From Lewinellaceae bacterium SD302 (GTDB lineage: Bacteria; Bacteroidota; Bacteroidia; Chitinophagales; Saprospiraceae), in contig PDLQ01000023.1 in the NCBI GenBank assembly GCA_002591745.1, positions 1 to 64,000 on the forward strand: DNA of 64,000 nucleotides. The letters run 5' to 3'. The notes under the pieces were generated by a model. The model ran no database searches. It was given only the letters and a program-made list of their open reading frames with translations, and was not told the DNA's origin. Positions within the stretch are counted from its first letter, which is position 1. Each line of letters starts with the position of its first letter. Made by a program: the position numbers and the translations under genes. This document shows, one piece after another, positions 1-60,612 of the stretch.

Positions 1-428
1 CGACTGAAACTCTGGTGGTATACGAAGCATGATCAAGATGTCAGATACCTTAATCTACTTCACATCAGAGTTTCTTTAAAATACTGGCCGGTTAGCAAAC
101 CGCTAAAGTCCAGCTTAGAGCTTGTTTGGGAATTGCTATGAACTGAAAAACAATGATTTATGGTTCTGACTATACCATAAAATTGTGAGCTTGGCGGGTC
201 ATGCGATCTATTTTTGGCGACGCCCCAGGTTCATAAATGCTTGTTTTTCAGGAAATAGAAATCCAAACAAGCTCTTATTTCGCAATAAGCATTGCTACTT
301 TGTTAGCCATGATGACACAAATTCACTGTTCGTCCTTTGCCCTTCGAGTTGAAGCCAGGATAATTGAACATTCAGAATTTGCCGAACACCGGTATATTTC
401 AATTGAGCAAAATCTACATTATAGATTT
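1..428. other. Gene-free left edge with a MITE-like element
   Basis: I find no convincing gene here. The stretch holds a candidate short inverted-repeat element (about 118-274) and one copy of the dispersed word GCTACTTTG (294-302) pointing toward the 3' end of the YihY gene. Short open frames in this stretch have no recognisable protein features. Confidence 0.6.
118..274. mobile_element. Candidate MITE with GAGCTTGTTTGG ends
   Basis: The two ends are GAGCTTGTTTGG and its perfect complement CCAAACAAGCTC, and each is flanked by TTA, which could be a 3-bp target duplication. The interior of about 130 bp has no gene. A related start, AGAGCTTGTTCG, occurs near 60658. A 3-bp TNA duplication with such ends would fit an IS5-type parent, but that parent is not in the window. 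Confidence 0.45.
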
Positions 429-1394
429 CTATCGCTTCGCCAAAGAAGCCTTAGTCACCCCCAAATCCTTCCGGGCCTCCTCCGGCTCCTGGGTGACCAC
501 CTCTTTCACCACCCGGACGGCATGGTCTCCCGGTAAAATGGGGTGGCCACTACGACTGGCCCAAACGTAAGTGAATTCCGCACCCAGAAAAATGATCTGA
601 CTGTTGTAGTAGGTCCAGACAAGTAAGGTGATCAATGCCCCGGCTGCGCCGTAGGTAGTACTGAAGTCGCTATTACCAATGTAGAGACCGATGAGAAATT
701 TACCGATCATAAAAAGAAAGGAGGTAAAGAAGGCACCGACCCAAATGTCGCGCCATCTGGCCCTGGCATCCGGTAGAAAACGAAAAAGGCAGGCGAAGAT
801 GATGGCCGTTATGATTAGATCGAGCCCCAACGTAAAGGCCCGTAAAACCGCCGGCCCCAGCAAAGTAATAGCTTCGGCGATCTGCTCTACGAATCCTCCG
901 ACGATGGCGTTGACGACGAGAGTCACCAGTAGCATGAATCCCAATACGAGCACCATTCCAAAACTTAGTACCCGATTAAGCAGGAAAGATTTTATGGTGC
1001 TTTCGGGGCGATTTTCGATCTCCCAGATACGGTTGAGGCTGGTCTTCAGGGAATTGAACACTGTGGTAGCTGCGAATAACAATGTTCCGATCCCCAGGAG
1101 GGTTGCCCAGATACTATCGCCGGTGCGGTAAGCGCTTTCCACGATCCCCTGAAGCGTTTCGGCGGCGTCGGCTCCCAGCAGGCCATTCAATTGGTTGTAT
1201 AATTGACCGGTCACCGCTTCACGTCCCATAAAAATACTAGCTGCCGAGATTATTACGACCAGCATGGGGCCAAAAGAAAATACGGTGTAGTAAGCCAAAG
1301 AAGCTCCCAAAGTAAAAGCATCGTCCTTACCATAGTTGGTAAAGAGTTCCTTAGAGAAACTGACGATACGCTGCATCCACCGGGGTAATTTCAT
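429..1394 (-). CDS. YihY/BrkB-family inner membrane protein
   Basis: This 321-residue protein looks like a full-length member of the YihY/virulence factor BrkB family of inner-membrane proteins, once mis-assigned as ribonuclease BN. The family is multi-pass and its biochemical role is unresolved. Seen here are the N-terminal DDAFTLGASLAYYTVFSF-type segment, about six hydrophobic segments (roughly 27-55, 90-115, 140-170, 180-205, 215-240, 245-270) and the family's YYNSQIIFLGAEFTYVWA signature near the C-terminus, followed by a charged cytoplasmic tail. It starts with ATG, without a clear Shine-Dalgarno site, and is divergent from the methylmalonyl-CoA mutase gene 90 bp away. Family assignment is secure; function is not. 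Confidence 0.9.
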   Translation of the reverse strand: MKLPRWMQRIVSFSKELFTNYGKDDAFTLGASLAYYTVFSFGPMLVVIISAASIFMGREAVTGQLYNQLNGLLGADAAETLQGIVESAYRTGDSIWATLLGIGTLLFAATTVFNSLKTSLNRIWEIENRPESTIKSFLLNRVLSFGMVLVLGFMLLVTLVVNAIVGGFVEQIAEAITLLGPAVLRAFTLGLDLIITAIIFACLFRFLPDARARWRDIWVGAFFTSFLFMIGKFLIGLYIGNSDFSTTYGAAGALITLLVWTYYNSQIIFLGAEFTYVWASRSGHPILPGDHAVRVVKEVVTQEPEEARKDLGVTKASLAKR

Positions 1395-1458
1395 GCTATT
1401 AACTTGTTGGTTATTGATTAAACCGTGGTGACCGCCTTCCGTGTTCGCCGCAGTTCCG

Positions 1459-1465
1459 TAATTTG
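1459..1465 (+). promoter_or_regulatory. Putative -7 element of the mutase gene
   Basis: TAATTTG resembles the Bacteroidota -7 box (TAnnTTTG) with one base less in the spacer. It lies 18 bp before the ATG at 1484, which argues for that ATG over the upstream TTG at 1463 that overlaps the box. Confidence 0.4.
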
Positions 1466-1483
1466 CCGGTCCAACCCAAGTAT

Positions 1484-3535: not shown

Positions 3536-3610
3536 TTGATTTTCGGCCTGTAACATTGTCCATCTAAGCGCATAAAGAGGTGTTGTTAACCCAAGTAATA
3601 AATACCCCCG

Positions 3611-4440: not shown

Positions 4441-4479
4441 TGTTGTTTAAAGCTTGATCCACTATATGATGGCACTGTT

Positions 4480-5067
4480 TTATTCCAGGTGCCGGGCGTT
4501 GATGTATTTGACCTGGCAACTGTCGTTGCTTAAAATAAGGTCATACTCCGCGAAGTCCACGTAGCGAATGATTCCAACGATAGAATCTTCCGCATAAACT
4601 CTACCCGTAAAATAAGGCATAGCTGAGACTCCGCTGATCATATAATTTGGATCTCCCGATAAAGGAAAAGCAATTCCATCAGTAGAATCTTGCACGGCGA
4701 ATCTTCGGGCCCGACCTCTTTCCAGGAGCCGAATTGTTGTGTTATATCTATACACATAAGAAGTGTACTCTCCCAGATCGTTCAACCAAATACTATCTTC
4801 AATGGTGACGAGGTGCTCTAGTGCAACCACGCATCCTTCCATAGTTGAGTAGTATTGACCATCCATTATTTCTGAACAGATAAACTCACCGATTGGTAAT
4901 TGTGGCGTGTCACAAATACAACTGTCCTGAGGCGTAAGCGTAAATCCGGGGAGGCAAATAACGGGTTGCTCTTCTTCGATTTCCGGGGTAATCGGTGTTT
5001 CCCGGCAGCCGTAGGCTAATAAGATAGCAATAAGGATAAGCCCGGACTTTTTAACAAGTTGATTCAT
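4480..5067 (-). CDS. Tandem-duplicated lipoprotein, second copy
   Basis: This 195-residue lipoprotein has a signal peptide ending in LLAYGC and a mature N-terminus beginning RETPITPEIEEEQP. It is closely similar to the protein encoded immediately upstream (5064-5654): both share the RETPITPEIEEEQPV start, the GFTLTPQDSCIC segment, the MPYFTG block, IIRYVD and the C-terminal DSCQVKYINA ending. Six cysteines in the mature part are conserved between the two and may form disulfides. The two genes overlap by four bases, so they are translationally coupled. Function unknown; I do not recognise a domain. Confidence 0.75.
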   Translation of the reverse strand: MNQLVKKSGLILIAILLAYGCRETPITPEIEEEQPVICLPGFTLTPQDSCICDTPQLPIGEFICSEIMDGQYYSTMEGCVVALEHLVTIEDSIWLNDLGEYTSYVYRYNTTIRLLERGRARRFAVQDSTDGIAFPLSGDPNYMISGVSAMPYFTGRVYAEDSIVGIIRYVDFAEYDLILSNDSCQVKYINARHLE

Positions 5068-5654
5068 TCTAGATGTTGAGCGTTAATGTATTTGACCTGA
5101 CAGCTGTCGTCATCTACAATGAGATCATAATCCGTAATATCTACGTATCGTATTATTCCAATGATAGAGTCTTCAGCATAGATTTTACCAGTGAAATAGG
5201 GCATGGCAAAGTTTTCCTGGGAAATGTAATTGGATTCCGCCGCTACGGGAAACCCTATACCGTCGGCAGTCCCATCAATAGAAAATCTTTTTGCCTGCCT
5301 ACGAGACATATTCATTAGTGAAGAATTGTACAAGTAGATATAACTCCATAATTGTCCAGCATTATCATTGGTCCAAACACTATCCCCAACTGCAATAACG
5401 TGCTCTAATTCAACTAAGCAACCTTGCATTGTAGCGTAATATTCATCATCCGCAATTTCCGTACAAATGAACTCTCCCACTGTTTGGCGCGGACTGTTAC
5501 AAATACAACTGTCTTGTGGGGTAAGCGTGAAGCCCTGAAGACAAGTAACTGGTTGCTCCTCTTCTATCTCCGGGGTTATGGGTGTTTCCCGGCAGGCCAG
5601 GACGCAAAAGACGATCAGATTCACGAAAAACAGCTGGCTGATGTGTAATTTCAT
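5064..5654 (-). CDS. Tandem-duplicated lipoprotein, first copy
   Basis: A 196-residue lipoprotein with a signal peptide ending in VLAC, paralogous to its downstream neighbour along its whole length. The arms that differ most are the signal peptides and the middle third, while the first 25 mature residues and the C-terminal 15 are nearly identical. This suggests a tandem duplication followed by divergence. It is the promoter-proximal gene of a two-gene unit; no clear TAnnTTTG box is visible upstream. Function unknown. Confidence 0.75.
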   Translation of the reverse strand: MKLHISQLFFVNLIVFCVLACRETPITPEIEEEQPVTCLQGFTLTPQDSCICNSPRQTVGEFICTEIADDEYYATMQGCLVELEHVIAVGDSVWTNDNAGQLWSYIYLYNSSLMNMSRRQAKRFSIDGTADGIGFPVAAESNYISQENFAMPYFTGKIYAEDSIIGIIRYVDITDYDLIVDDDSCQVKYINAQHLE

Positions 5655-6024
5655 GTCGATATAATTTTTGTAGAGCGATAGTAAATTAGCAATTAATTGC
5701 CCACGACTACAAGCGGGATGTTTTATTAACCTGAGTTTAACGGTTCAAGTAATCTGATAGAGCTCTTCGGCTGAACGGACGTTGACGGTCTGGTTCGTCC
5801 GCCGAGTGGGTTTCAACATCTTACTGGTTGATTATCAAGAGATAGAAACACTATAAGAGGAATAATCTTTCGGCCGACGCCAGCCGCGTCTGACTCAGTC
5901 AAGCCGGATACACTCCTCCGTGGTGTTTCGATGGACGATTTTATCGGTCCTTCCCCATCACCCTTCGGTCAAAAGTTAACCCTGCTACTTTGCCAGTCAA
6001 AAAGATGCCAGTACCTTTGGCCCC
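5655..6024. other. Divergent intergenic region before tatC
   Basis: No gene is visible. The region separates the lipoprotein pair from tatC and carries one dispersed word at 5984-5992 close to the tatC start. Short GC-rich inverted segments around 5768-5805 are too weak to name. Confidence 0.5.
5984..6000 (+). promoter_or_regulatory. Dispersed word before tatC, promoter-like
   Basis: GCTACTTTGCCAGTCAA is a copy of the word found 24 times in this window. Its TACTTTG portion resembles a Bacteroidota -7 box and stands about 33 bp before the tatC ATG at 6025, in the sense direction. Promoter function is an inference from position. Confidence 0.45.
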
Positions 6025-6981: not shown

Positions 6982-7015
6982 CAAATGAATCTTGACTTCA
7001 AAGTAGCAGTGGTTT

Positions 7016-7774: not shown

Positions 7775-8626
7775 CTAATCTTCTTTCCAATGAGATATGG
7801 GAACGCTTACGTTTAATTTGAGGCCTTGGCCGGGAGCGCTGATAAATTCAAACTTGCCACCGACAAGGGTGACGCGGGTTTCGATATTCTTGAGCCCCAG
7901 CCCGGGCTTGAGGTCTTTGGTTTCAATACCAGTACCGTCGTCCTGGTAGGTGAATAATAGCTGATTGTCCCGACGGTGAAAGGCAACCAGGATGTTTTGG
8001 GCATTAGCGTGTTTGATCGTGTTGTTGATCATTTCCTGCAACACCCGGTAGAGCGCCAGTTCGGTCTTTTTCGGAACCCGGACGCTGGCGGGCAATTCGA
8101 GGGGGCCGCTTTCGGCTCCATTTTCCAGCACTGCTACTTTGCTAGTCACACTGATCTTTCCTCCCCGGTCGATCCGTTCACACAAATCCTCGGCGGCGGC
8201 GAAAAGCCCGAACTTTTGCAACTCCGGCGGAAAGAGATCGTGGGTGATCCGTCGGGCACTATTGAGGATGTTACCCAGGATATCCAGCGAGTCATTGCGG
8301 AGTTCAACGTTTTCCTTTCGTTGCTCATCCAGCGTGAGTTGACCGATAAAGAGTCTCACCGCGCTGAGCTTGCTACCGATCTCGTCGTGGAGGTCGGCGG
8401 CGATGCGGCTGCGCTCTTCTTCCTGCACGTCGATAGCGGCTTTGAGCAATTCTTTCTGGTGCTTTTTTTCTTCCTCCTGGCGCAACCGTTGTTGCTCCTG
8501 GATACGCCGTTGGTAGACGATGAAGAAGATCACCAGACTGACCGCCAGCACCAACATCCCGACGACTCCGCTCAGCAGCAAGGTCAGTGGAAGGTCAGTT
8601 GTGGGGGTGGTCGTTTGCGAATCCAT
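7775..8626 (-). CDS. NarX-type sensor histidine kinase (HisKA_3)
   Basis: A 283-residue kinase with one N-terminal membrane helix (about 14-36), a charged coiled-coil linker rich in Glu, Gln and Arg, a HisKA_3 dimerisation domain with the H-box EEERSRIAADLHDEIG, and an HATPase domain with N-box QEMINNTIKHANAQN, G1 DDGTGIE and G2 GLGLKNIETR. It has no extracellular sensor domain of its own. The upstream membrane protein overlaps its first 43 bases in another frame, and may therefore supply sensing. A copy of the dispersed word (8143-8151) sits inside this gene and encodes the peptide TSKVAV. The expected partner is the response regulator at 7016-7672. Confidence 0.92.
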   Translation of the reverse strand: MDSQTTTPTTDLPLTLLLSGVVGMLVLAVSLVIFFIVYQRRIQEQQRLRQEEEKKHQKELLKAAIDVQEEERSRIAADLHDEIGSKLSAVRLFIGQLTLDEQRKENVELRNDSLDILGNILNSARRITHDLFPPELQKFGLFAAAEDLCERIDRGGKISVTSKVAVLENGAESGPLELPASVRVPKKTELALYRVLQEMINNTIKHANAQNILVAFHRRDNQLLFTYQDDGTGIETKDLKPGLGLKNIETRVTLVGGKFEFISAPGQGLKLNVSVPISHWKED

Positions 8627-11398: not shown

Positions 11399-12598
11399 AT
11401 GCTTTACCTACACATCCCCTTCTGTAAACAGGCTTGCTCCTACTGCAACTTTCACTTCAGCACCTCCAGCCGGGGGCGGGATGAGCTCTTGCTGGCCCTG
11501 CACCAGGAAATTCGGCTGCGTAAAGAGGAAATTCAGCGGGCAGGAACGGAGACGATCTACCTCGGGGGCGGCACGCCTTCTTTACTGACGGAACGGGAAC
11601 TGGCCGATATTTTTCGGGTACTGGCGGAGGTTTCTGATTTTGACTATCAAAGTAGCAAGGTCGGTAAAGAACACAGTAAAAACGCTAACGGACCAACCGA
11701 CAAACGCGAGATCACCCTGGAAGCCAATCCGGACGACCTCACCGAAGCTACCGTAGAGATACTGGCGGCCAGCCCGGTCAACCGACTCAGCATTGGCTTA
11801 CAATCTTTTCAGGAAAAGGACTTGCGTTATATGAACCGGGCCCACTCGGCCAAAGAATCGACCCTGGCTATGCAGCGGGTCTTAAAAGCCGGCTTTACTG
11901 ACCTGAGCGTGGACCTGATCTACGGCTCCCCTACTACCAGTGACGCGGATTGGGACGACAACATCAGCCGGGTACTTGATTTTGGGGTCGGCCACGTTTC
12001 CGCCTACGCTTTAACGGTGGAGGAAAAGACGGCTCTGGCTCACCGCATTAAAACCGGCCAGTTGCCCGCTCCGGACGAAGATCGCTTTGCCCGCCAATTC
12101 GATCGACTCGTGGAGCGACTCACCCTGGCCGGTTTTGAACATTACGAGATCAGCAACTTTGCCAAGCCAGGTCAGTACAGTCGCCACAACACCGGTTACT
12201 GGCAGGGCAAACCTTACGTCGGGCTGGGACCTAGCGCCCATGGATTCAACGGCTTCGACCAACGTAACTGGAACATCGCCAACAACGCCCTCTATACCAG
12301 GTTGCTTACCGGAGCAACGTCCATTCCCGCTGGACTGACCGAAACGGAGCAGCTCTCCCCTACCGACCGCTACAACGAGTTTGTCATGACCGGCCTGAGG
12401 ACCCAGTGGGGTGTTCGTCGCACGGACCTGGCAAGTAAGTTCGGTACTTCGCTGGCCGAATATTTTTCCACGACCGTCAGGGAGGAACAATTGCTTTGCT
12501 ACTTTGACAGTCAAAAAATAGAATCCGAAGGGCGCTACCAGCTTAATCAATCGGGGAAAAGATTGGCAGATGGGATTGCGGCGGCTTTGTTTCGGTAA
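11399..12598 (+). CDS. hemW: Radical SAM heme chaperone HemW
   Basis: HemW (formerly annotated oxygen-independent coproporphyrinogen III oxidase-like) is a radical SAM protein that binds heme and an iron-sulfur cluster and is thought to deliver heme to target proteins. The radical SAM cluster motif is CKQACSYCNF (CxxxCxxC plus F) at residues 10-18, followed by the YLGGGTPS SAM-binding motif. HemW lacks the extra N-terminal cysteine-rich features of true HemN, as here. The protein has 399 residues from the ATG at 11399; the upstream reading frame continues through palindromic repeats and is not credible coding sequence. Two copies of the dispersed word lie inside the gene (11648-11656 and 12498-12506), the first in a non-conserved insert after residue 80. 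Confidence 0.92.
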   Translation: MLYLHIPFCKQACSYCNFHFSTSSRGRDELLLALHQEIRLRKEEIQRAGTETIYLGGGTPSLLTERELADIFRVLAEVSDFDYQSSKVGKEHSKNANGPTDKREITLEANPDDLTEATVEILAASPVNRLSIGLQSFQEKDLRYMNRAHSAKESTLAMQRVLKAGFTDLSVDLIYGSPTTSDADWDDNISRVLDFGVGHVSAYALTVEEKTALAHRIKTGQLPAPDEDRFARQFDRLVERLTLAGFEHYEISNFAKPGQYSRHNTGYWQGKPYVGLGPSAHGFNGFDQRNWNIANNALYTRLLTGATSIPAGLTETEQLSPTDRYNEFVMTGLRTQWGVRRTDLASKFGTSLAEYFSTTVREEQLLCYFDSQKIESEGRYQLNQSGKRLADGIAAALFR

Positions 12599-15568: not shown

Positions 15569-17005
15569 CTACTCCTTATCCCGCGCAATCACTTCCGCCA
15601 CTTGTCCGGCTTTCAGATTTTTACCGATGATCTCACGATCGGGATTCAAGAGATAAAGCTCCGGTGTGTGGTCAACGTAGTAAGTTTTGTAGATGGCTCG
15701 GTTAGTGGGGTCATAAACATTAGTAAATTCACTCATGCCGTATTCCTGAACGAATTTTTTCCAGGCCTTCTCCTCCGTATCGATGGCGATGGCGTACAGT
15801 CCTACTTCTCCATTCCGGCTTTTCACGAAGTCCCGCACTTTGGGCGTTTGCTCGATGCAGTGCTCGCAGGTAGGGTTGTAGAGGTAGACGATTAGATAAG
15901 GTGCCTGCTCGTCGTAGAGAGTTCGGGGGTTACCGTTGATATCATTGACCGTGATATTGGGGCCGGGCTGTCCTTTCAGACTTTGTGCCATTTCTCCGGC
16001 GCGTTGCTGGAGGCCGTAAATGGTCATACTATCACTCCAAAAAGCTAATTCGGGGGTGAAGTAATTCTGAATCATGTGTACGTAAACCGCCTCTCCATCC
16101 ATCAAATTGGTTTTGCCGGGTTCGTACTTCAGGGTGATCCAGTTGGCGAAATAACGCAGATACTCGGGTTTGTCGATCACCCTTTGCAATAGATCATCGG
16201 CACTTTCCTTGACTGCGTCGGCATTCCGTGGCGTCAGTTCCTCCATGTAGCGCTTCAGCTTATTGAAAACTACCGGCGTCCGCAACAGCGCCGTATCGTT
16301 GAAATCGACGTTCGACCAAAAATCCTTGCGGTAGGCCGCTACCTGAGCCTCATTATCCGGACTGCCGTCGGGTAGCGTCAGGTCTTTACGGATTTCCGGA
16401 TTTTGGCCGGCGCGTTTGAAGCGGGCGTAAAAATTATCCTGATTATTAGCGAACAGCTCTTCCAGGTATTGTTTGCGGCGGGCCAATAATTCGTCCAGTT
16501 CCTTTTGAGCCGCTTCCCGTTCGGGGGTATTCGCGGCCAGTCCGTTCAGTTTTTGATTGGCGGCTTTGATTTGAGGCTGCAGATTCACTTCAAAACGGCG
16601 GGTATCGTAAAACAGCTCGTTAGCCCGGCTACCATCCACGGCCATACTGTTGGGAATGTCGTCTTTTTTGGTAGTCAGGCTAAACTCCTGGTCACCGTCC
16701 ATCATGAATTGCACGGCTGTTTTATCCGGATAATAGGCCAGGTATACTCCCCGTGAGTAAGGCTCGGCGCGACTAAACACGGCTACGTCGCCTTCCATAG
16801 TCGCAGTATCCTGAATGAATTGTTGGTCGCCAATGGAGGCAACTAGCAAAACGTCTCCCGTAATACTGGCGCCTTCTACTTTTACCCGGATTTCGGGCTG
16901 GGCGCTGGCATTGGCATCAGCAGAACTCTGAGCGCCGGAGTTGGAGCAGGCGATGAGTAGCAGCGTCAGGAAAAGGAATCCGAGTAATTTGGTTTGGACT
17001 GGCAA
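15569..17005 (-). CDS. Thioredoxin-fold lipoprotein (TlpA/DUF5106-like)
   Basis: A 478-residue lipoprotein: the signal peptide ends LLLIACSN, so the mature chain is lipid-anchored. The N-terminal half (about 30-330) is a beta-rich then helical DUF4369/DUF5106-like region typical of Bacteroidota TlpA-like proteins. The C-terminal third (about 345-478) has a thioredoxin fold with the active-site CEHC in YLYNPTCEHCIEQTPK and a cis-Pro region DHTPELYLL. It probably reduces or isomerises envelope disulfides. The only available start before the signal peptide is a TTG at 17005; this TTG is part of a dispersed word (17003-17011), an unusual arrangement. Start confidence is low, family confidence good. 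Confidence 0.82.
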   Translation of the reverse strand: MPVQTKLLGFLFLTLLLIACSNSGAQSSADANASAQPEIRVKVEGASITGDVLLVASIGDQQFIQDTATMEGDVAVFSRAEPYSRGVYLAYYPDKTAVQFMMDGDQEFSLTTKKDDIPNSMAVDGSRANELFYDTRRFEVNLQPQIKAANQKLNGLAANTPEREAAQKELDELLARRKQYLEELFANNQDNFYARFKRAGQNPEIRKDLTLPDGSPDNEAQVAAYRKDFWSNVDFNDTALLRTPVVFNKLKRYMEELTPRNADAVKESADDLLQRVIDKPEYLRYFANWITLKYEPGKTNLMDGEAVYVHMIQNYFTPELAFWSDSMTIYGLQQRAGEMAQSLKGQPGPNITVNDINGNPRTLYDEQAPYLIVYLYNPTCEHCIEQTPKVRDFVKSRNGEVGLYAIAIDTEEKAWKKFVQEYGMSEFTNVYDPTNRAIYKTYYVDHTPELYLLNPDREIIGKNLKAGQVAEVIARDKE

Positions 17006-17014
17006 AGTAGCAAT
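16998..17014 (-). promoter_or_regulatory. Dispersed word overlapping a TTG start
   Basis: Read on the minus strand this is ATTGCTACTTTGCCAGT. It includes both a -7-like TACTTTG and the TTG that is the only in-frame start before the lipoprotein signal peptide. If the box is a promoter, the real start or transcript start must be reconsidered. Confidence 0.4.
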
Positions 17015-18772: not shown

Positions 18773-18791
18773 ATGACTTCAAAGTAGCAAT
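18773..18791 (-). promoter_or_regulatory. Dispersed word before the Lrp gene, promoter-like
   Basis: On the minus strand it reads ATTGCTACTTTGAAGTCAT and lies about 28 bp before the Lrp ATG. TACTTTG resembles the -7 box. It is the short-spacer variant (one base between TTTG and AG). Confidence 0.45.
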
Positions 18792-18968: not shown

Positions 18969-18985
18969 TTGCTACTTTGCCAGCC
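18969..18985 (+). promoter_or_regulatory. Dispersed word directly before the DUF3291 start
   Basis: TTGCTACTTTGCCAGCC ends at the base before the ATG at 18986. If TACTTTG is the -7 box, transcription would begin at or next to the start codon, giving a leaderless mRNA. Confidence 0.45.
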
Positions 18986-23920: not shown

Positions 23921-24043
23921 ATTGCTACTTTGAAGCCAAAACGATGCCAGAAATCAGACGCTAGTCACTAGATTTCCAAGTGAGACACGCTAAAGCGGCA
24001 GTCTAACAGCAGCGAAGTGGTCTTCTGACTTCAAAGTAGCAAT
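23921..24043. repeat. Inverted-repeat element between gap and pgk
   Basis: A 123-bp element whose two ends are converging dispersed words (ATTGCTACTTTGAAGCCA on the left; TGACTTCAAAGTAGCAAT on the right). The interior has AGACGCTAG and CAGCGAAGTGGTCT motifs also found in the element at 30813-30967. It looks like a non-autonomous intergenic cassette; no gene lies inside. Confidence 0.6.
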
Positions 24044-30812: not shown

Positions 30813-30967
30813 ATGGCTACTTTGTTAGTCAAAAAAGGCACTGGATTTTAGACGCTAGATACTGGATTCTCCAATCAGACGTGCGTTACATTAGCAGTTT
30901 AGCAGCGAAACGGTCTAGTATCTAATATCTAGTAGCGCAGCGGTTTTCTGACTTCAAAGTAGCAATG
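30813..30967. repeat. Inverted-repeat element with dispersed-word ends
   Basis: A 155-bp element bounded by converging dispersed words (ATGGCTACTTTGTTAGTCA left; TGACTTCAAAGTAGCAAT right). The interior has GACGCTAGATACTGG and its partial complement TCTAGTATCTAATATCTAG, so it can fold. Related to 23921-24043 and to 41500-41588. Confidence 0.6.
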
Positions 30968-34792: not shown

Positions 34793-37282
34793 ATGCGCTG
34801 GATATTGTTGGCCCTGGCGGCCCTAACTTTCGGAGGCTGGTGTTGGCTGGGTAGTACCGCCGGCCCCTTTGGTCTTCCCGTCCCTGCCCTGGGCGAGTTT
34901 TATCACCCCAGTCGTGGTCTATGGCGCAATGCTACCGCTGGGTTGACTGGCCCACCTGAGGGAAAAATCAGCATTGATCATCCGCTGGCCGAAGGTCGGG
35001 TTTTTTACGACGAGCGCAACGTGCCCCATATTTTCACTGATGACATTCACCAGGCCTTATTCCTGCAGGGCTACGTAACCGCCCGTGACCGCTTATGGCA
35101 GATGGACATCAGTACCCGCAGTACCGGGGGTGAGTTATCCGAAGTACTGGGAGAGCGTACCCTGGTTCGCGATCGACGTCAAATCCGCCACGGTTTCCGA
35201 GCCGCCGCCGAATTAGCGGTGGAAACCTGGAAAACCGATTTCCCCGAAGATTACGCCCTCGTAAAAGCCTACTGCGCCGGTGTCAATGCCTATATTGATC
35301 AGCTAGCCCCCGAAGACTACCCGGTAGAGTATAAATTACTCGACCAAAAACCCCGCAAGTGGTTACCCTACCACAGCGCCCTGATGCTAAAAGGGATGAC
35401 CCAAAGCATGACGGATCGCAGCTCGGATGCCTCCTTTGCCCACGCGCTGGCAACATTGGGGCCGCAGAAATTTAAAGAACTCTACCCCCAGTGGAATCGT
35501 AAACAGACTCCGATCGTACCCAGTGGCACCAACTTCCAACTCCCCGCCGCTGAGCCAAGGCGTCGATCTCCACTGCCAAGCACTGCTACTTTGCCAGCCC
35601 AAAAGAATGACCTCTCCAACCAAGAAGAAAGTGTCATTGAACCAGACTTTTTCGACTACCGCTCTGGCAACGGCTCCAACAACTGGGCCATTGCCGGAAG
35701 CAAGAGTATCACCCGTCGCCCGATTTTGGCCGGTGACCCCCACCTCGGGCTGAGCCTGCCGAGTATCTGGTACGAGATCCAGCTGCATACTGGCGAGAGC
35801 AATTGTCGTGGCGTCAGTCTGCCCGGCCTCCCGATGATCGTGATCGGTTTTAACGAGAACATTGCCTGGAGCATGACCAACGGTAGTGAGGATGTAGTGG
35901 ATTATTATCGCATGGCCTGGACTGACGAAAGTCATAGCAGCTATCGGATCGGGCAAAAAATTATAGAAGCCACCGTTCGCCGTGACACCCTCAAAGTTAA
36001 AGGTGAGGCCCCGGAAATCATCGAAACCACCTGGACCGAGCGTGGTCCAATTTCCGTAGTGGATGAGTCTTCCCCCTATTTCGGCCTGGCAAAGGACGCT
36101 ATTTATCTTTACACCCAAACTGACCGGCCGGCCACCGAACTCACCACCATGCGGCAGATGATGCAGGCAAAAGACCATAGTGACTTCAAAGTAGCATTGC
36201 GGTCATACTCGGAGCCAATTATGAATTTTGCCTACGCCGACAAACACGGTGACATCGCCATCCAGGCAAATGGATTTTGGCCAAACCGGGGAAAATCGCC
36301 CGCCATAGACAGCAATGGCGTGGTAAACTACGCTGGCTTAACGATTTCCGATGGCAGCAAAGAACAGCCAAACTGGAATAATTATCTTCCCTATCAACAT
36401 CTGCCTCAGGTTTTAAATCCCCAGCGTGGCTTTGTCTCCAGTGCCAACCAGGAACCGACTGATGACAAATTTCCTTACCTCTACTATGGCAGTTTTCCCG
36501 ACTGGCGTGGCCGCTACATCAACCGACGGCTGGCCCAGGGAAAACGACTTGGCAACGAAGAAATGAAGGAACTTCAGCTGGATGCCCACAGCATGTTGGC
36601 CGAGGAAATGCTACCGCTGTTGCTGGCCAGAATTAATCGGCGACAACTGACCGACCAGGGACTACAGTGGTTCCAACTCCTGGCTGATTGGGATTATGCC
36701 TACGTCAAAGACAGCAAAGCTCCCGCTTTCTTCGAAGCCTGGCGCAAAAAATTCTACGAGTTGACCACCGACGAAATCAACCCCGAAGACGGCTTTCCCA
36801 GCTTTGCTTATTGGCGGCTGATCGAGCTATTACGCAGCCAGCCCCGTCACGAACTCTTTGATATCCAAGCCACCGCCAGTAAAGAAACTGCGGCCATTAT
36901 CACCCAGCGTGCTTTTGACGAATTACTGGAGCAAGACGCCGAACAGCCCATCGGCAAATGGGTGGACGAGCGTGATAGTCAACTCCGGCACGTAGGCAGA
37001 ATTCCCGGCTTCGGGGCGGGCATGCTCAATGCAGACGGCCACAACAGTACGCCTAATGCCCTGAACGGCAGCCACGGCCCGAGTTGGCGAATGGTTGTCG
37101 AACTGGGCGAGCGGCCACGCGCCTGGGGTGTATTCCCCGGAGGTGCATCCGGCAATCCGGCCAGCCCGAATTTCGTAAGAGGAGTGGAAGAGTGGTCGCG
37201 CGGTCGTTATTTCGATCTGCCGCTTTACACCAGCCCACGGGAAGCATCCGTTAAGGCCTACTCTACCCTAATTTTTGAATAG
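34793..37282 (+). CDS. Penicillin acylase family amidase (Ntn hydrolase)
   Basis: An 829-residue precursor of the penicillin acylase/acyl-homoserine-lactone acylase family, exported and cleaved by itself into alpha and beta chains. The new N-terminus of the beta chain is the catalytic Ser295 in GNGSNNWAIAG; GDPHLGLSLPSIWYEIQLH and FNENIAWSMTNGSEDVVDYY are family hallmarks. An N-terminal hydrophobic segment (about 2-22) is a signal or anchor. The spacer just before Ser295 contains a copy of the dispersed word (35585-35593), and a second lies at 36187-36195 in the beta chain. The substrate could be N-acyl amino acids, quorum signals or lactams. Confidence 0.9.
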   Translation: MRWILLALAALTFGGWCWLGSTAGPFGLPVPALGEFYHPSRGLWRNATAGLTGPPEGKISIDHPLAEGRVFYDERNVPHIFTDDIHQALFLQGYVTARDRLWQMDISTRSTGGELSEVLGERTLVRDRRQIRHGFRAAAELAVETWKTDFPEDYALVKAYCAGVNAYIDQLAPEDYPVEYKLLDQKPRKWLPYHSALMLKGMTQSMTDRSSDASFAHALATLGPQKFKELYPQWNRKQTPIVPSGTNFQLPAAEPRRRSPLPSTATLPAQKNDLSNQEESVIEPDFFDYRSGNGSNNWAIAGSKSITRRPILAGDPHLGLSLPSIWYEIQLHTGESNCRGVSLPGLPMIVIGFNENIAWSMTNGSEDVVDYYRMAWTDESHSSYRIGQKIIEATVRRDTLKVKGEAPEIIETTWTERGPISVVDESSPYFGLAKDAIYLYTQTDRPATELTTMRQMMQAKDHSDFKVALRSYSEPIMNFAYADKHGDIAIQANGFWPNRGKSPAIDSNGVVNYAGLTISDGSKEQPNWNNYLPYQHLPQVLNPQRGFVSSANQEPTDDKFPYLYYGSFPDWRGRYINRRLAQGKRLGNEEMKELQLDAHSMLAEEMLPLLLARINRRQLTDQGLQWFQLLADWDYAYVKDSKAPAFFEAWRKKFYELTTDEINPEDGFPSFAYWRLIELLRSQPRHELFDIQATASKETAAIITQRAFDELLEQDAEQPIGKWVDERDSQLRHVGRIPGFGAGMLNADGHNSTPNALNGSHGPSWRMVVELGERPRAWGVFPGGASGNPASPNFVRGVEEWSRGRYFDLPLYTSPREASVKAYSTLIFE

Positions 37283-40265: not shown

Positions 40266-40871
40266 CTAATCGGCGGGTGCCAATAAATCTAACAGGCGGG
40301 TGTTTTGGGCGGCGGGTTTACTGCCGTTCGGGAGCGGTACGCTGTCTGGGCCGGGACGGTACACCGTGTCGGTTAGGTAGACATAGCGGGGTTCAGAGGG
40401 CAGATAGCGGATTACGGTATCTACTTGATCGCGGTAAACCACTTTTTCCACCGTACGATCCAGGTAGATGGTGTCGGCCAATAAGACGGGGTCTGGAACC
40501 GGAGCTGAAACCAATTTATAGATGATTTTTTCTTTGGACTGCCAAAGTATCAGGGTAAGTGTTGTGGCGGCCAAAAATAAACTCGCAGCCAGAGACAGAC
40601 GATATCTCCAATTCGCCTGAACAATCTTGGCACCACCACCGGCCGCCCTCGATGTTGTCGCTTCCGAATCAGCAGAAATTGACTGACGCTTTCGGTAAGC
40701 TTCACTTACGCCCACTGGTAAAACCATCGGTAGCGACGTGCTGGCTTCCGTAAGCGAAATTTCGGTGGCCAGTAGTTGGCAACCGGCGTAATCCGCCTCG
40801 GTGATCGATGCTTTTACTTCCTCCGGCAATTCCTCGTAGGGAGTATCGGGCAGGTAATCGAGGTAGTCCAT
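40266..40871 (-). CDS. Putative anti-sigma factor
   Basis: About 201 residues with a soluble acidic N-terminal part, one membrane helix (about 95-115, LSLAASLFLAATTLTLILW) and a periplasmic C-terminal part rich in TVEKVVYRDQVDTV-type segments. It begins two bases after the stop of an ECF sigma factor gene, so the two are co-translated; the layout (cytoplasmic N-terminus, one helix, periplasmic part) is that of an anti-sigma factor. The zinc-binding HxxxCxxC motif of classic anti-sigmas is not present. Role inferred from context. Confidence 0.7.
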   Translation of the reverse strand: MDYLDYLPDTPYEELPEEVKASITEADYAGCQLLATEISLTEASTSLPMVLPVGVSEAYRKRQSISADSEATTSRAAGGGAKIVQANWRYRLSLAASLFLAATTLTLILWQSKEKIIYKLVSAPVPDPVLLADTIYLDRTVEKVVYRDQVDTVIRYLPSEPRYVYLTDTVYRPGPDSVPLPNGSKPAAQNTRLLDLLAPAD

Positions 40872-41499: not shown

Positions 41500-41588
41500 C
41501 TGCTACTTTGTTAGTCAAAAATAGATACTGGATCGCTACGCTGTTAGATACCGGAGGCTAGACTTGCTGGCTGCTCTGCGGTATAATA
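41500..41588. repeat. Partial repeat element with one dispersed word
   Basis: Begins with CACTGCTACTTTGTTAGTCA and continues with GATACTGGAT, GTTAGATACCGGA and TAATATCTAG, all related to the interior of the element at 30813-30967. The right-hand word is missing; the element runs up to the stop codon of the next gene, which may be supplied by its TAG. Confidence 0.55.
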
Positions 41589-44350: not shown

Positions 44351-45355
44351 TCACTCCCCGAGTTTCAAGAACGCCTTAATCTGATCGTTCGGGACCGTCA
44401 CGCTCAGGGTATAATGCAGGAGTTTCCAGCTTCCGTCAGTTTGTCTTTTTACGATTCCGGTGCCGCGGCAAGGGCCCATCCAAGTGTTGAGCAGCTCGTC
44501 CCAGTAAGCGATGTTTTCGTCAGGATTAACGAAGAGGTGACGTTCCCTGGCCGTGAAGTCCCAGGCTTTCCCCTTGTCAAAATAGGGCTTGGCGAAGGTG
44601 TAGAATTCTTTTTTGGTCCAGTGTTCACCTGCGTCGGTGCCAATGTAAATCGCCCCATCAGCCATGCTGCCGAAGAACTGTTCGGCGTCCGTTATAGCAG
44701 CGGCCCGATGCCAGGCGGTGGCGAAGGCATCGAGTGACTCTTCGGGGCTTTCGTCGGAATAGTCGGGACAGGGCTCAGGACTGCGATTATCAGTAATACG
44801 AATGATCTGCCAGCTATTTTCCTCTCCGGTTCTGGCCAGTTGAAAAGCGTTGGTACCGCAATGGGAGATTTTATCTTGGAAGTGAAAAACGTAGGGCGTC
44901 CAGACCGTAGCCAGGTCGTTATCAATGCGGACTTCAAAGTAGCAAAGTTCCTCACGCAGCTGATTCGGCTGGGCCCGCGATAAAGATTGAATAAAGGCTG
45001 GAATAGCTGTCTGGCGAAGTTTGGATTGTCCCTGCTCGTCCGTCATTACCGTCATCAGTTGGGCGGTAGGGTGAAAGAGATCGGACAAGCCGGTGGTATC
45101 GGCGGCCAGCATACCGGCAAAGAGTGCTTTGATGGGAGCCAATACCGCCGCCCGGTCATCCGGCAATGCTACTTTGTAGTCAAAAGAAATTTTATTTAAA
45201 CCGACAAAGGCATTCTTCAGACTCGCACGTGCCTCGACAATTCTAGTGAAGTCCGGGATCGAAGTCGGACCAGAGGTCCCTGCCTCTGAAATTCCAGCCG
45301 AAAGTTCGAGTGAAAACAAAAGCAGCATAGCCACTACTAGATTTAAATAACGCAT
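44351..45355 (-). CDS. Secreted protein with two NTF2/SnoaL-like domains
   Basis: About 334 residues from the ATG at 45355 (the longer frame adds a polar stretch before the signal peptide MRYLNLVVAMLLLFSLELSAG). The mature part contains two NTF2-like domains, about 60-190 and 205-330, the second with FATAWHRAAAITDAEQFFGSM, the first with APIKALFAGMLAADTTGLSDLFHPTAQLMTV. Such domains are cone-like and may bind small ligands or act as steroid-isomerase-like enzymes; no catalytic residue set is certain here. Two dispersed words (44935-44943, 45168-45176) lie within the gene. Function unknown. Confidence 0.75.
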   Translation of the reverse strand: MRYLNLVVAMLLLFSLELSAGISEAGTSGPTSIPDFTRIVEARASLKNAFVGLNKISFDYKVALPDDRAAVLAPIKALFAGMLAADTTGLSDLFHPTAQLMTVMTDEQGQSKLRQTAIPAFIQSLSRAQPNQLREELCYFEVRIDNDLATVWTPYVFHFQDKISHCGTNAFQLARTGEENSWQIIRITDNRSPEPCPDYSDESPEESLDAFATAWHRAAAITDAEQFFGSMADGAIYIGTDAGEHWTKKEFYTFAKPYFDKGKAWDFTARERHLFVNPDENIAYWDELLNTWMGPCRGTGIVKRQTDGSWKLLHYTLSVTVPNDQIKAFLKLGE

Positions 45356-50457: not shown

Positions 50458-50603
50458 TTGCCCGGTGATTGTTTTATTTCGTCTATCAACAGAAGATCGA
50501 TCGGTCCGGTAACTTTGGTTAAAAACTCCGAGGAGCAACTTATATAAAAAGTCGTTCTTTTGACTACCAAAGTAGCAATGCTGGTTAATACCAGGATGGA
50601 TTC

Positions 50604-51272: not shown

Positions 51273-51601
51273 CATATCCCATTTTTCAGCACTGCTATTA
51301 GTGGTCTGAAGCATCAAGCCTATTCAACCTGACTCGCAGGCATGACCATACTGACGACTGCCTGATCGCTTTACAGATATAAAGCAGTCTTCAGCCTATC
51401 TCCCTGATTAAGTGTACTTACGGCGTGGCCGCTCTAACGAGTATGTGACCCGTGAGTTCTTCCCCCAAGGGGAGCTTTCGATAGTCGGCTACTCTCTTGC
51501 TGCTGGAATTTCGCCGCTCCGTCTTAGCTGGCAGGCTGCTGAAATTCAAGCGATATTTCCCCGGAAACTTTGCTACTTTGCTAGCCATAACCCACAAGCC
51601 A
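51240..51601. other. Intergenic region before sdaA
   Basis: No gene. It holds the second arm of the inverted repeat, a 16-bp string (GCCGCTCTAACGAGTA, 51428-51443) also found at 12663-12678, and a dispersed word before sdaA. Confidence 0.5.
51570..51587 (+). promoter_or_regulatory. Dispersed word before sdaA, promoter-like
   Basis: TTTGCTACTTTGCTAGCC ends 14 bp before the sdaA ATG at 51602, in sense orientation. Confidence 0.4.
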
Positions 51602-54882: not shown

Positions 54883-54883
54883 G

Positions 54884-55064: not shown

Positions 55065-55085
55065 CGGGGCTTCAATGTAGCAGGC

Positions 55086-56759: not shown

Positions 56760-56764
56760 GGGTC

Positions 56765-58183
56765 TTAAAGTTCTTGGTGGATGGGAAAACAGGCACGGAA
56801 ACAGGTACGGCCGGGAGTGGATTCAGCCTGGATGGTGCCGTTGTGCCGCTCAATGACCCGTTTGACAATGTCGAGCCCCATACCAGTGCCCTCACCGATT
56901 CCTTTGGTGGTAAAGAAGGGTTCGAAAATACGGGACTGGATATCTTTGGGGATACCGGAGCCATTGTCTTCGATCTCCACGCATACGCAATCCCGTTCCT
57001 GGAAAGTCCGGAGAGTAAGTTTGGGGTCTTTTTCCGGCATGGCATCCAGAGCGTTGACGATCAGGTTCGTCCAGACTTGGTTAAGCTCACCCGCCAGGGC
57101 CATGATCTTTGGTACTTTGAAGTCCAAATCCTTTTCCAGACTTACGTTACCCTTTTTAAACCTGAACTTGAGCATGGTGAGCGTAGATTTCAGGCCGGCA
57201 TTCACGTCTACCTTATCCATCGATGGCTCTTCGTCCATGTGGCTATAGGTTTTGATGGACTTTACCAGGTCACCGATCCGACAACTGGCGGTGTGGATTT
57301 CGCTGACGATCCGCTCGGTATCCAGATTCGTGGCCAGCCACCAGAGGACGGTACCTACGGATTCAGGGGGAATAAAGGAGGCTACCTCTTCCAACTGTTC
57401 TTCACCGAATTCGAATTCGACCAGCGTATCGGCCAGGTCTTCACTGCGCTCTACATTGTGATCGTCTAACCAGTCGATCAAATCGTCTTTCAGCGCTTCT
57501 TCTTCAAGGAGACTCAACTCACTCTTATCATAACTTTCCAGGGCCTTCACCAGGATGGAGGCGATCCGGTCCGCGTCTTCGGGCGTCACGCGCATGGTAA
57601 TAACCTTGCGAAAGCGTTCTGCCGTTTGCCCGAGGTGGTTCCTGAGTTCCTGGCTGGACCGCACCATGGCCGAAGCCGGGTTATTTAACTCGTGGGCCAG
57701 GCCGGCCGACATCTTACCGAGCGCCATCAGCTTTTCGTCCATCAATTGCATCTGCTGAAAATCCCGTACTCGGCTGGTCATCACCGCCACCAGTGCCTGG
57801 GTCAAGGAATAGCTTTCTCTGATCATTTCGACAAAGTGATCGCGGTGCAATTCCAGCAATGTACATTCCTTAAGGACTACACTATCTGCCCCGGATTCAG
57901 TCATTCGACTAAACGGCAATACGCCAGTAACCTGCCCCTCTCCCCAGATACCGAGTTCCCGTTTGCGTCCTTTGCGTTCGTAGCGGAGCACGTACTTCCC
58001 CTTCATGATCACTTGCAAATGATCGACGGTATCGCCCTCCCGGAAGATGTACTCGCCTTTGGGGATGACGCGGCAGGTGGACCGCCTGACCAGCCATTCC
58101 AGCGGCTCGGGTTCGACGTTGGCGAACACCTCGAAACTGGCCAATTTGGCTACTAATTCGGAAGTCGAAGGTGTTTTGGACAT
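56765..58183 (-). CDS. Histidine kinase with cyclic-nucleotide-binding-like domain
   Basis: A 472-residue soluble kinase with no membrane helix. Residues about 10-130 form a cNMP-binding-type (CAP_ED) beta roll (VIPKGEYIFREGDTVDHLQVIMKGKYVLRY), but the phosphate-binding GExxxxxxxxRxA motif is not conserved, so another ligand is likely. Next come a HisKA region with the H-box MSAGLAHELNNPASAM and an HATPase domain with N-box NQVWTNLIVNALDAMPE, G1 EIEDNGSGIP and G2 GTGMGLDIVKRV. The next gene, 5 bp away, encodes a receiver-flavoprotein fusion that is the evident phosphotransfer partner. Confidence 0.9.
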   Translation of the reverse strand: MSKTPSTSELVAKLASFEVFANVEPEPLEWLVRRSTCRVIPKGEYIFREGDTVDHLQVIMKGKYVLRYERKGRKRELGIWGEGQVTGVLPFSRMTESGADSVVLKECTLLELHRDHFVEMIRESYSLTQALVAVMTSRVRDFQQMQLMDEKLMALGKMSAGLAHELNNPASAMVRSSQELRNHLGQTAERFRKVITMRVTPEDADRIASILVKALESYDKSELSLLEEEALKDDLIDWLDDHNVERSEDLADTLVEFEFGEEQLEEVASFIPPESVGTVLWWLATNLDTERIVSEIHTASCRIGDLVKSIKTYSHMDEEPSMDKVDVNAGLKSTLTMLKFRFKKGNVSLEKDLDFKVPKIMALAGELNQVWTNLIVNALDAMPEKDPKLTLRTFQERDCVCVEIEDNGSGIPKDIQSRIFEPFFTTKGIGEGTGMGLDIVKRVIERHNGTIQAESTPGRTCFRACFPIHQEL

Positions 58184-58251
58184 ATGGGTTGTGTTGGCGG
58201 AGATGTAACGTCGGTAATAAGGTGAGGGTTTTGAAAAGGCGCACTTCCCCC

Positions 58252-58875
58252 TTACACCAGGTCAATTCGCCGCAAACTATGTACCTCCAGAGTATCCAGG
58301 TCCAGGGCCACCAAATAACCTAAGTTCCGTGCCTGAAAAGCACAGCCCGCATCGATACAAATGGCCGGCACTGTGTCCACGTTGTTTACGTCCCGGCGGG
58401 TTTCTAGATAAGACTGAGGCGTATGACCGTGTACGATCACCCGATCGCCCAACCAAAGCCGGTCGATGTCCTCGATCCAATAACGGATCCAGCGCATCTC
58501 CTTAGTGTCTTCCAGTGGGTTTTCTACGGCGAAGTTGAGTCCGGCGTGCACCAGAATGTAACCCGGTATTTCCAGGTAATCAGCCAGATTCATCATCCAT
58601 CGGATGTGCTGGTCGGAATAGCCGTGCCTGTGATAAGCCTGCCGCTGGTAAGCATCAATCGTCATCTCCTCGTGGTTACCCTTAAGGCACTGCACGTTGT
58701 AACCACGCTGCTGTAGGTCCATGATTTGCCCGATCACCCCTACGCTATCCGGCCCCCGGTCCACATAATCACCGAGCAGATAAAGTTCGTCAGATTTCTG
58801 GAGTTTTAGCCTGGCTAGCAAAGTAGCAAAGGTTTTGGAGCAACCGTGGATGTCTGAGATGGCGTATCGGGGCAT
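58252..58875 (-). CDS. Metallophosphoesterase (PrpA/ApaH-like)
   Basis: A 207-residue phosphatase of the calcineurin-like superfamily. All dinuclear-metal motifs are present: SDIHGC (1), LGDYVDRGPDS (2), KGNHEEM (3), VHAGLNF (4) and VHGHTPQS (5). The family includes protein phosphatases (PrpA/PrpB) and diadenosine tetraphosphatases; the short length and GDYVDRGPDSVGV favour the PrpA-like branch. It begins 5 bp after the der stop and is probably cotranscribed with it. A copy of the dispersed word (58819-58827) lies near the 5' end and encodes FATLLAR. Confidence 0.9.
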   Translation of the reverse strand: MPRYAISDIHGCSKTFATLLARLKLQKSDELYLLGDYVDRGPDSVGVIGQIMDLQQRGYNVQCLKGNHEEMTIDAYQRQAYHRHGYSDQHIRWMMNLADYLEIPGYILVHAGLNFAVENPLEDTKEMRWIRYWIEDIDRLWLGDRVIVHGHTPQSYLETRRDVNNVDTVPAICIDAGCAFQARNLGYLVALDLDTLEVHSLRRIDLV

Positions 58876-58880
58876 ATCCG

Positions 58881-60179
58881 CTACTTCTGCCGAAAAAAGA
58901 TCGACATCGGCACACCCTTGAAATCAAAGTGTTCCCGCAGCTTATTCTCTAAAAAGAGCTTGTAGCTATCACGGATGTGCTTGGGGTTATTACAGAAGAA
59001 AGCGAAAGCTGGATAAGCGATCGGCAATTGGGTCACGTACTTGATCTTAACGTAGCGGCCACGCTGGCTGGGCGGTGGATTGCGCTCCATGACCTCCTGC
59101 ATCACATCATTAAGTTTGCTGGTAGGTATACGACGGCTGCGGTTGGCGTAGACCTCGAGGGCGACGTCAACGGCTTTCATAATTCGCTGCTTTTCGGTTG
59201 CGCTCACGAAAATGACCGGCACATCCGTAAATGGAGCAAAGCGGCGGCGGACTTCCAGTTCCATATCGCGGGCCGTATTGGTTTCCTTCTCGACCAAATC
59301 CCACTTATTCATTACAATAACAATGCCCTTATTGCGCTTCTGGGCCAGGCGGAAGATGGACAGGTCCTGGGCCTCCACGCCCATGGTGGCGTCGATCATC
59401 AGTACGCAAACGTCGCTTTCGTCGATGGCCTTGATGGCCCGCATAACGGAGTAGAACTCCAGGTTTTCGTGCACCTTAGCTTTCTTACGCATTCCGGCGG
59501 TATCAATGAGGATGAACTCCTTATCGAATTTCTTGTAGTGGGTGTTGATGCTATCGCGGGTGGTGCCGGCCACATCAGTTACGATGTTTCGCTCTTCGCC
59601 CAGCAAAGCGTTGATGAGACTACTCTTACCGGCGTTGGGTTGGCCGACGATGGCCAGGTGAGGCAATTCAGGACGTTCAGGTTCTTCAGCGTCCAGGTAT
59701 TCCACGGCGGCATCCAGTACTTCGCCGGTACCAGATCCGGTGGCGGAACTGAGGAAGAAAGTTTGCTCGAAGCCCAGGCTCCAGAATTCGTTGGCTTCCA
59801 GCATTCTAGTACTGTTGTCCACTTTATTCACGGCCAGAATTACGGGTTTGTCCGTTTTCCGCAGCATCTGAGCCACTTGTTCATCCAGATCGGTCAGGCC
59901 GGTAGCTACGTCGACCATAAAGATGATCAGGGTAGCTTCTTCGATGGCGATCTCCACCTGAGTGCGAATGGCGGCTTCGAAGACGTCGTTGCTGTCGCGC
60001 ACGAAACCACCGGTATCTACCACGGTGAATTCTTTGCCATTCCAGTGGCTTTGGCCGTACTGGCGGTCGCGGGTTACGCCGCTCTGGTCATCAACGATGC
60101 TTTGGCGCTCTCCGATGAGGCGGTTGAAGAGGGTGGATTTGCCGACGTTTGGACGACCGACGATGGCGATGAGGTTCAT
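58881..60179 (-). CDS. der: GTPase Der (EngA)
   Basis: Essential ribosome-assembly GTPase acting on the 50S subunit. The 432-residue protein has two tandem G domains: first GRPNVGKSTLF, DTGGF and NKVD; second GQPNAGKSSL, DTAGMRKK and NKWD; followed by the KH-like C-terminal domain (SKLNDVMQEVMERNPPPSQRGRYVKIKYVTQL). Length and motif order are normal. The ATG at 60179 is clear. A dispersed word about 330 bp upstream (60509-60517) points toward it. Confidence 0.97.
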   Translation of the reverse strand: MNLIAIVGRPNVGKSTLFNRLIGERQSIVDDQSGVTRDRQYGQSHWNGKEFTVVDTGGFVRDSNDVFEAAIRTQVEIAIEEATLIIFMVDVATGLTDLDEQVAQMLRKTDKPVILAVNKVDNSTRMLEANEFWSLGFEQTFFLSSATGSGTGEVLDAAVEYLDAEEPERPELPHLAIVGQPNAGKSSLINALLGEERNIVTDVAGTTRDSINTHYKKFDKEFILIDTAGMRKKAKVHENLEFYSVMRAIKAIDESDVCVLMIDATMGVEAQDLSIFRLAQKRNKGIVIVMNKWDLVEKETNTARDMELEVRRRFAPFTDVPVIFVSATEKQRIMKAVDVALEVYANRSRRIPTSKLNDVMQEVMERNPPPSQRGRYVKIKYVTQLPIAYPAFAFFCNNPKHIRDSYKLFLENKLREHFDFKGVPMSIFFRQK

Positions 60180-60274
60180 AATTTATTTTTTCTGCTCTGA
60201 CGTGCTGCTGTCGCTTTAACTTGCCGTTCTGGCAGCCAATTTGGATGGCTACTTTAACAGCCGCTTTTACATGC

Positions 60275-60410
60275 CGCCCTTACTCTACTTTTTCCATTGA
60301 TGAAAAAGTAGCAAAAAATCTAGTCCAAAATAAACTCGCTTCGCTCAGACAGTATTTTGGACGACTGCTTCGATCTGATACTTTTATGCGAAATGAGAAC
60401 TACTCAAAGC
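60275..60410. repeat. Dispersed hairpin element, copy 2
   Basis: T-rich hairpin at 60285-60311 (CTACTTTTTC...GAAAAAGTAG), CTAG linker, stem arms GTCCAAAATA (60323-60332) and TATTTTGGAC (60353-60362), and GAGAACTACTCAAAGCGGC (60393-60411). It is the reverse-complement relative of 38005-38172. Confidence 0.65.
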
Positions 60411-60595
60411 GGCGTGCTCTCTTAGAGGGGTGCAAAAGTACGGGTAATCTTGGAAAGAGAGAGCTTATCCGTTTAATGGTATAGATTCATTATTCCATTC
60501 TTGGCTATCAAAGTAGCAGTTTGAGGAGTTTGCGACGATCAGTAAAGCTAATGCTAATGAATACACGGATGTTCACTGCTTTCGAGACATCCAGC

Positions 60596-60612
60596 ATTGC
60601 TACTTTGTTAGC
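60596..60612 (+). promoter_or_regulatory. Dispersed word before the tail-like secreted protein gene
   Basis: ATTGCTACTTTGTTAGC, about 150 bp before the ATG at 60763, sense orientation. Its partner at 60509-60517 points the other way, toward der. Confidence 0.35.

Follow-up and report, generated by a model that had tools for sequence, protein, structure and literature searches.

The genome of Lewinellaceae bacterium SD302 (Bacteroidota; Saprospiraceae) carries a short word, GCTACTTTG, in far more copies than chance predicts, as first noticed in a stretch of 64,000 nucleotides (contig PDLQ01000023.1, positions 1 to 64,000; here called the window). We give about even credence to reading this word as a species-specific self label that resembles DNA-uptake signals, is spelled in different dialects across the genus, and would be recognized on each strand separately. 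The reading draws on the abundance and sharpness of the word, on its respelling in congeners, and on a spacing rule that holds between copies on the same strand.

Abundance, form and placement of the word

The window contains 24 copies of GCTACTTTG, 12 on each strand; 100 dinucleotide shuffles gave a mean of 0.37 and a maximum of 2, and none reached 24. This bears out the preliminary description, which had counted 24 copies, balanced by strand, against a chance expectation of about 0.5; its coordinates are right for 23 of them, and the copy that it placed at 8143 lies at 8133. Its account of the flanks also stands, in that a T precedes 23 of the 24 copies (the exception is at 30816), and one or two free bases followed by AGYC come after 23 (the exception is at 29414). 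Three one-mismatch cores with good flanks are also present in the window. Over the whole genome (5.48 Mb) the count is again far above chance, with 1533 copies (770 and 763 by strand) compared with 80 (43 and 37) for the same word read backwards.

The full motif, derived from 127 and then from 355 copies, is approximately A-R-C-A-Y-T-GCTACTTTG-(NY or A)-AGYC-AAAA, the tail after AGYC being A-rich; farther out than about 7 bases upstream or 22 downstream, the sequence is close to background in composition, save for a weak upstream T-richness. The spacer comprises two bases in 247 of the 355 copies and one base in 108, the single base being A in 98 of the latter. A conserved TTTG/CAAA hairpin was considered and dropped, as the A-rich 3′ part is too loose. 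In a sample of 2,006,512 bases of the SD302 genome (37 percent), good flanks accompany 543 of 580 exact cores and 57 of 612 one-mismatch cores (2.5 expected); the flank matrix was trained on exact copies, so that the figure of 543 is not independent, whereas the low one-mismatch number is. GCTAC[A/C/G]TTG or GCTACTTCG makes up 47 of these 57. The scarcity of one-mismatch cores with good flanks suggests that the reader of the word is probably strict and that few decaying copies are present.

Gene positions were taken from a simple custom gene caller, by which intergenic DNA, 11.7 percent of the total, holds 318 of the 580 copies (odds ratio 9.2). Near gene starts the word is oriented: in the 100 bp upstream of start codons, words directed at the gene outnumber those directed away from it by 98 to 49, and the first 100 bp of genes hold 38 copies in the direction of the gene and 17 in the opposite one. 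These counts speak for a promoter or terminator element resembling TAxxTTTG, an alternative raised in the preliminary description. The bias occurs only near starts, however: among the 579 placed copies (one at a contig end was dropped), those in genes run along the gene in 129 cases and against it in 133, and the two orientations number 96 and 88 between co-directional genes. A general promoter or terminator account was rejected on this lack of an overall gene-strand preference; TTTG is also missing from the dialect of a congener (G127, below), and we consider such an element very improbable. A polar motif of the kind represented by FtsK-orienting polar sequences (KOPS) was rejected for want of skew polarity: copy orientation is uncorrelated with GC skew (r 0.04 over 90 stretches), and the fraction of copies on the plus strand is 0.50 in high-skew and 0.48 in low-skew stretches, with GC skew serving as a proxy for replichores in this draft genome.

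The origin of copies within genes was approached by alignment in a 1.2-Mb set (138 genes with 164 copies), in which 16 copies could be aligned to the congener stretches compared and 148 could not. Twelve of the 16 align without a gap within ten residues, three of them in proteins of 70–75 percent identity, which suggests that the alignable copies arose mostly by substitution. The remaining four lie within five residues of a gap relative to the related protein; together with an excess of inverted pairs closer than 300 bp, they are what a mobile repeat or transposon end spread by insertion would predict. That alternative, also offered in the preliminary description, is largely refuted by the 12 ungapped copies, by the near-background composition outside the motif, and by the congeners, which hold respelled words rather than copies, and we find it hardly credible.

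Dialects in the genus

Each of 119 other genomes of the family contains the exact 9-mer 10 to 228 times. An extended form is present in 509 copies in SD302 and in none of 20 congeners; among 395 other genomes of the order it gives only single matches, in 15 of them. When the form is lengthened further, SD302 has 273 copies and 394 other genomes of the phylum have none. A scan of genome contigs for the full word gave no match (SD302's own genome was possibly left out of the collection), and viral contigs gave five single matches for one form, about the chance number by estimate, and none for the other.

In 400 kb of the congener G127, a number of the words with the highest over-representation join by overlap to form a single motif, GCACCTGCG-N-C-AGCGCCC-AA. 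This motif, which has no TTTG, can be laid over that of SD302 in the same frame, the two agreeing in C at −4, Y at −2, then GC, C, T or Y, and G, followed by the spacer and AG. G127 has 545 copies of GCACCTGCGNCAGCGCC. A third spelling, GCWCCYGCG-NN-CCCGC, was found by template in another congener, G006, where a plain k-mer count had missed it. The core common to the three spellings is C-x-Y-x-GCxxCYxxG-N-N. A merged pattern for the two GC-rich spellings, GCWCCYGCG-NN-MSCGC, occurs in 63–1410 copies in 15 of 16 congeners drawn, in 4 copies in SD302, and in at most 9 copies in each of 379 other genomes of the order. This distribution points to a word family that spans the genus, G129 perhaps excepted, and in which SD302 has a dialect of its own. 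G129 (8 copies) and G137 (63) are low in the GC-rich word, and may hold further dialects or have lost the system.

The congeners are distant from SD302 (50–55 percent identity over most of one protein). Among 50 reciprocal orthologues of SD302 and G127, word position showed no significant association, whether upstream (4 of 8 vs 7 of 42, p 0.059), inside (p 0.12), downstream (p 1) or anywhere (p 0.17). In two genes the SD302 and G127 words lie on the same strand and in the same loop, about 25 bp apart and at a different base; in a third gene they are further apart.

Strand-dependent spacing and its possible readers

Copies of the word avoid one another on the same strand. In SD302, 34 same-strand pairs closer than 2 kb were observed against 167 expected from density, and 216 opposite-strand pairs against about 168; shuffling strand labels over fixed positions (500 times) gave z values between −3.0 and −6.7 for the six bins under 2 kb. 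In a pair-interaction fit that accounts for the intergenic preference, same-strand factors are 0.01–0.04 below 1 kb and 0.10–0.14 at 1–2 kb, and rise to as much as 0.79 at 5–6 kb. Exclusion in this fit applies to the same strand only; opposite-strand copies, which come as close as 23 bp, attract one another below 300 bp, and divergent pairs do so up to about 2 kb. Same-strand neighbours have a mean spacing of 6.8 kb (coefficient of variation 0.61), and adjacent copies alternate in strand in 405 of 567 cases.

The same rule was found with a different word in G127, where 108 sites in 400 kb all scored above 18 bits and the reversed matrix gave none. Here a single same-strand pair lies below 2 kb (29.2 expected), and none of 2000 strand shuffles was as low (mean 17.3, lowest 8); opposite-strand pairs number 34 (29.2 expected).

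We modelled the retention of copies by unique usefulness in a crude toy simulation, with parameters of our own choosing and two runs of 1 Mb per model. A double-strand reader excluded every class of pair, a reader acting to one side excluded same-strand and convergent pairs, and only a single-strand reader yielded exclusion confined to the same strand; neither orientation-independent uptake nor one-direction tract uptake gave the observed pair pattern. On the terms of this simulation, the strand rule agrees with recognition of the word strand by strand. Such readers may be of two kinds: an import or processing step that follows strand separation, or a helicase-nuclease of the Chi type.

The second kind is the main rival to the self label, and we regard it as possible, if unlikely. 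A directional helicase-nuclease resecting broken DNA would read the word on one strand and switch from degradation to repair; each direction would need its own copies, so that same-strand copies would be redundant and opposite-strand copies would not. Directional reading predicts an exclusion that is confined to strand and decays over about 5 kb, as seen here, and the Chi words of RecBCD and AddAB are themselves read on one strand, in a direction-dependent manner, over a kilobase range. Proteins with a PDDEXK_1 nuclease domain are present in 21 of 21 genus genomes; those of SD302 include a UvrD-like fusion and a second, AddB-like protein (names by inspection), the latter kind, judged by length, occurring also in a few congeners. 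However, RecC has no match in any of the 21 genus genomes, and the motif is about 25 bases long and includes a spacer of one or two bases, whereas known Chi words are short (5–8 bases), unspaced and often polar to replication. Chi of E. coli favours one replication direction, unlike the SD302 word with its lack of correlation with GC skew. A change of dialect would moreover be costly if every copy were needed for repair.

An oriented word might instead be bound by a protein that organizes the chromosome, anchoring, loading or stopping a motor at regular intervals. Density is indeed even, with a variance of 3.2 for a mean of 5.7 copies per 20 kb (90 stretches). Regular anchoring is difficult to square with opposite-strand copies at minimal distances where same-strand copies are strongly depleted for kilobases, with the absence of GC-skew polarity, or with stretches of up to 25.6 kb that lack the word, and we think this role improbable, more so than the Chi-like one.

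On each strand copies lie about 6.8 kb apart and, to judge from the alignable ones, mostly arose by substitution at sites that can bear the change. Under the self-label reading they would be kept because DNA bearing the word would be preferentially acquired, protected or recombined by like cells. The spacing suggests that the reader tests one strand at a time, probably on single-stranded DNA at or after a ComEC-type channel, such that a second same-strand copy within a few kilobases would add nothing and an opposite-strand copy would. SD302 differs from its congeners in a more AT-rich dialect, which it may have acquired by respelling the word. ComEC-family proteins are encoded in 21 of 21 genus genomes.

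Regions that lack the word are illustrated, rather than tallied, by the 2.0-Mb set, in which 3 of 13 stretches longer than 11 kb were examined and 19 of their 29 predicted genes were compared with Pfam. The longest (25.6 kb, SD302 C60:29237-54849) holds no exact word and is a defence-type island, with an SNF2 helicase, TOTE conflict-system domains, an OLD-like TOPRIM protein and GmrSD, and an efflux pump alongside. A second stretch (15 kb) is a metal-efflux-type region, and a third (21 kb) contains two very large genes, one of them adhesin-like with PKD and type IX secretion domains. CHU_C and SprB domains occur together in one SD302 protein, in keeping with its placement in the Bacteroidota.

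Several observations weigh against the self label or limit its generality. Just 8 copies of the GC-rich word were found in G129, and in G006 same-strand exclusion was not seen (4 pairs below 2 kb, 5.2 expected), a weak test with 32 sites in 200 kb. Divergent pairs below 2 kb outnumber convergent ones (135 vs 81, or 1.7-fold) in a way that the intergenic preference does not explain, and the orientation of words toward genes just upstream of start codons is likewise unexplained. Control genomes, too, encode ComEC-family proteins (10 of 14), and their presence therefore proves little. For T2SSE, the type II/IV secretion or pilus ATPase, no full-length match was obtained in the genus, in a search that covered this component and ComEC among pilus and competence parts; the best SD302 match (24.9 bits, near the cut-off) covers 83 of 370 positions in a frame of 946 aa, and congener matches are partial too. 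A pilus or type II secretion ATPase thus appears not to be evident in the genus, and the competence genes to which the preliminary description had pointed are represented by ComEC and not by a full-length pilus ATPase match. Finally, exclusion confined to the same strand is not predicted by a double-strand receptor, and in Haemophilus influenzae uptake is independent of the orientation of the signal (PMC1939737).

The likeness to uptake signals suggested in the preliminary description holds for copy number, strand balance, substitution within genes and dialects in congeners, and the absence of the word from the defence island and the metal-efflux region may point the same way; it does not hold for the pilus ATPase or the strand-only exclusion. 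As with the DNA uptake sequences (DUS) of Neisseriaceae, hundreds to thousands of copies are present on both strands, in and between genes, and related species differ in spelling and keep a core, which is CTG across DUS dialects (PMC3630211) and GCxxCYxxG here. The differences are that SD302 is unrelated to Neisseriaceae, has no full-length pilus ATPase match and shows same-strand-only exclusion, that an uptake role here is putative, and that spacing is 6.8 kb per strand compared with about 1.1–1.5 kb overall for DUS (PMC2397512). The uptake signal sequences (USS) of Pasteurellaceae share with the word a 9-base core with looser flanks, presence in genes and close inverted pairs (PMC7811141 for the pairs). 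They differ in that their uptake is orientation-independent whereas spacing is strand-dependent here, an indirect comparison of uptake with spacing (PMC1939737, as above), and in that one-mismatch cores are few here (57 with good flanks, compared with 543 exact). Within the Bacteroidota, Riemerella columbina (Flavobacteriaceae) is reported to prefer its own DNA in transformation; the available text of that report lists A/T-rich k-mers and no comparable word (PMC7965970).

The genomic pattern of the word thus appears uptake-signal-like, yet we do not class it as a member of DUS or USS, since the search gave no pilus ATPase and orientation seems to make a difference. We know of no uptake-like signal with exclusion limited to the same strand, and our literature search, in which subscription journals were poorly covered, turned up no description of a comparable word from this group.

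Copies in the window and wider meaning

Copies in the window are listed in Table 1. The radical-SAM gene that holds the copies at 11648 and 12498 is one we take to be HemW-like, and the gene around 58819 is presumably phosphatase-like.

Table 1. Exact and degenerate copies of the word in the 64-kb window.
Feature	Position	Strand	Basis
Word core	294..302	+	
Word core	5984..5992	+	
Word core, 1-base spacer form	6999..7007	-	
Word core within a minus-strand gene	8133..8141	+	
Word core within radical-SAM gene, loop gapped vs relatives	11648..11656	-	alignment
Word core near end of the same radical-SAM gene, gapped vs a relative	12498..12506	+	
Word core	17003..17011	-	
Word core, divergent pair with 18971	18780..18788	-	
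Word core, divergent pair with 18780	18971..18979	+	
Word core, convergent pair with 24032	23924..23932	+	
Word core, convergent pair with 23924	24032..24040	-	
Word core, weakest flanks among the 24 (AGTA)	29414..29422	-	
Word core, convergent pair with 30955; sole copy with G before it	30816..30824	+	
Word core, convergent pair with 30816	30955..30963	-	
Word core within gene	35585..35593	+	
Word core, same gene as 35585 copy	36187..36195	-	
Degenerate copy GATACTTTG, good flanks	40543..40551	-	
Word core, best flanks in window (22.9 bits)	41502..41510	+	
Word core within gene	44935..44943	-	
Word core, same gene as 44935 copy	45168..45176	+	
Word core	50568..50576	-	
Word core directly upstream of likely start codon of serine-deaminase-like gene (name and start by judgement)	51572..51580	+	
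Degenerate copy GCTACATTG, good flanks	55073..55081	-	
Degenerate copy GGTACTTTG, good flanks	57111..57119	+	
Word core within phosphatase-like gene, ungapped vs G006	58819..58827	-	alignment
Word core, divergent pair with 60599	60509..60517	-	
Word core, divergent pair with 60509	60599..60607	+	

Other repeats were seen alongside. In the window, two near-perfect inverted repeats of 29–30 bp (11193-11240 and 11333-11382), 111–112 bp apart, are situated around the start of the radical-SAM open reading frame, and at positions 4476-5595 two genes of 195 and 196 aa (DNA 70–74% identical), about 585 bp apart, seem to have arisen by tandem duplication. The analysed stretch of G127 (C14:600001-1000000) contains a second over-represented repeat, TAGTCTGTAGTCTATAGTC, unrelated to the word and arranged in short tandem and inverted arrays (for example at joined positions 12038-12066, 80830-80897 and 91107-91156); an AGTC-rich inverted repeat at 15472-15547 of the window resembles it. 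This second G127 repeat is intergenic, with GTCTGTAGTC falling between called genes in 21 of its 22 copies.

Somewhat more tentatively than for the self label, we propose that a Bacteroidota genus marks its chromosomes with words in several dialects and reads them from single strands, which would amount to self-recognition of DNA without a type IV pilus; in the light of the simulation, the strand-only exclusion may then be the footprint of a reader that acts after strand separation. Uptake signals have been described for Pasteurellaceae and for Neisseriaceae. A set of dialects across a genus of Bacteroidota, if true, would mean that genome self-labelling evolved again, in organisms where the known pilus machine is not evident. 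Strand-only exclusion would provide a quantitative and testable sign of how such a label is read, and the strand rule could separate models of the origin of such words, namely drive by uptake and selection for repair. The word could also help to make these bacteria genetically tractable.

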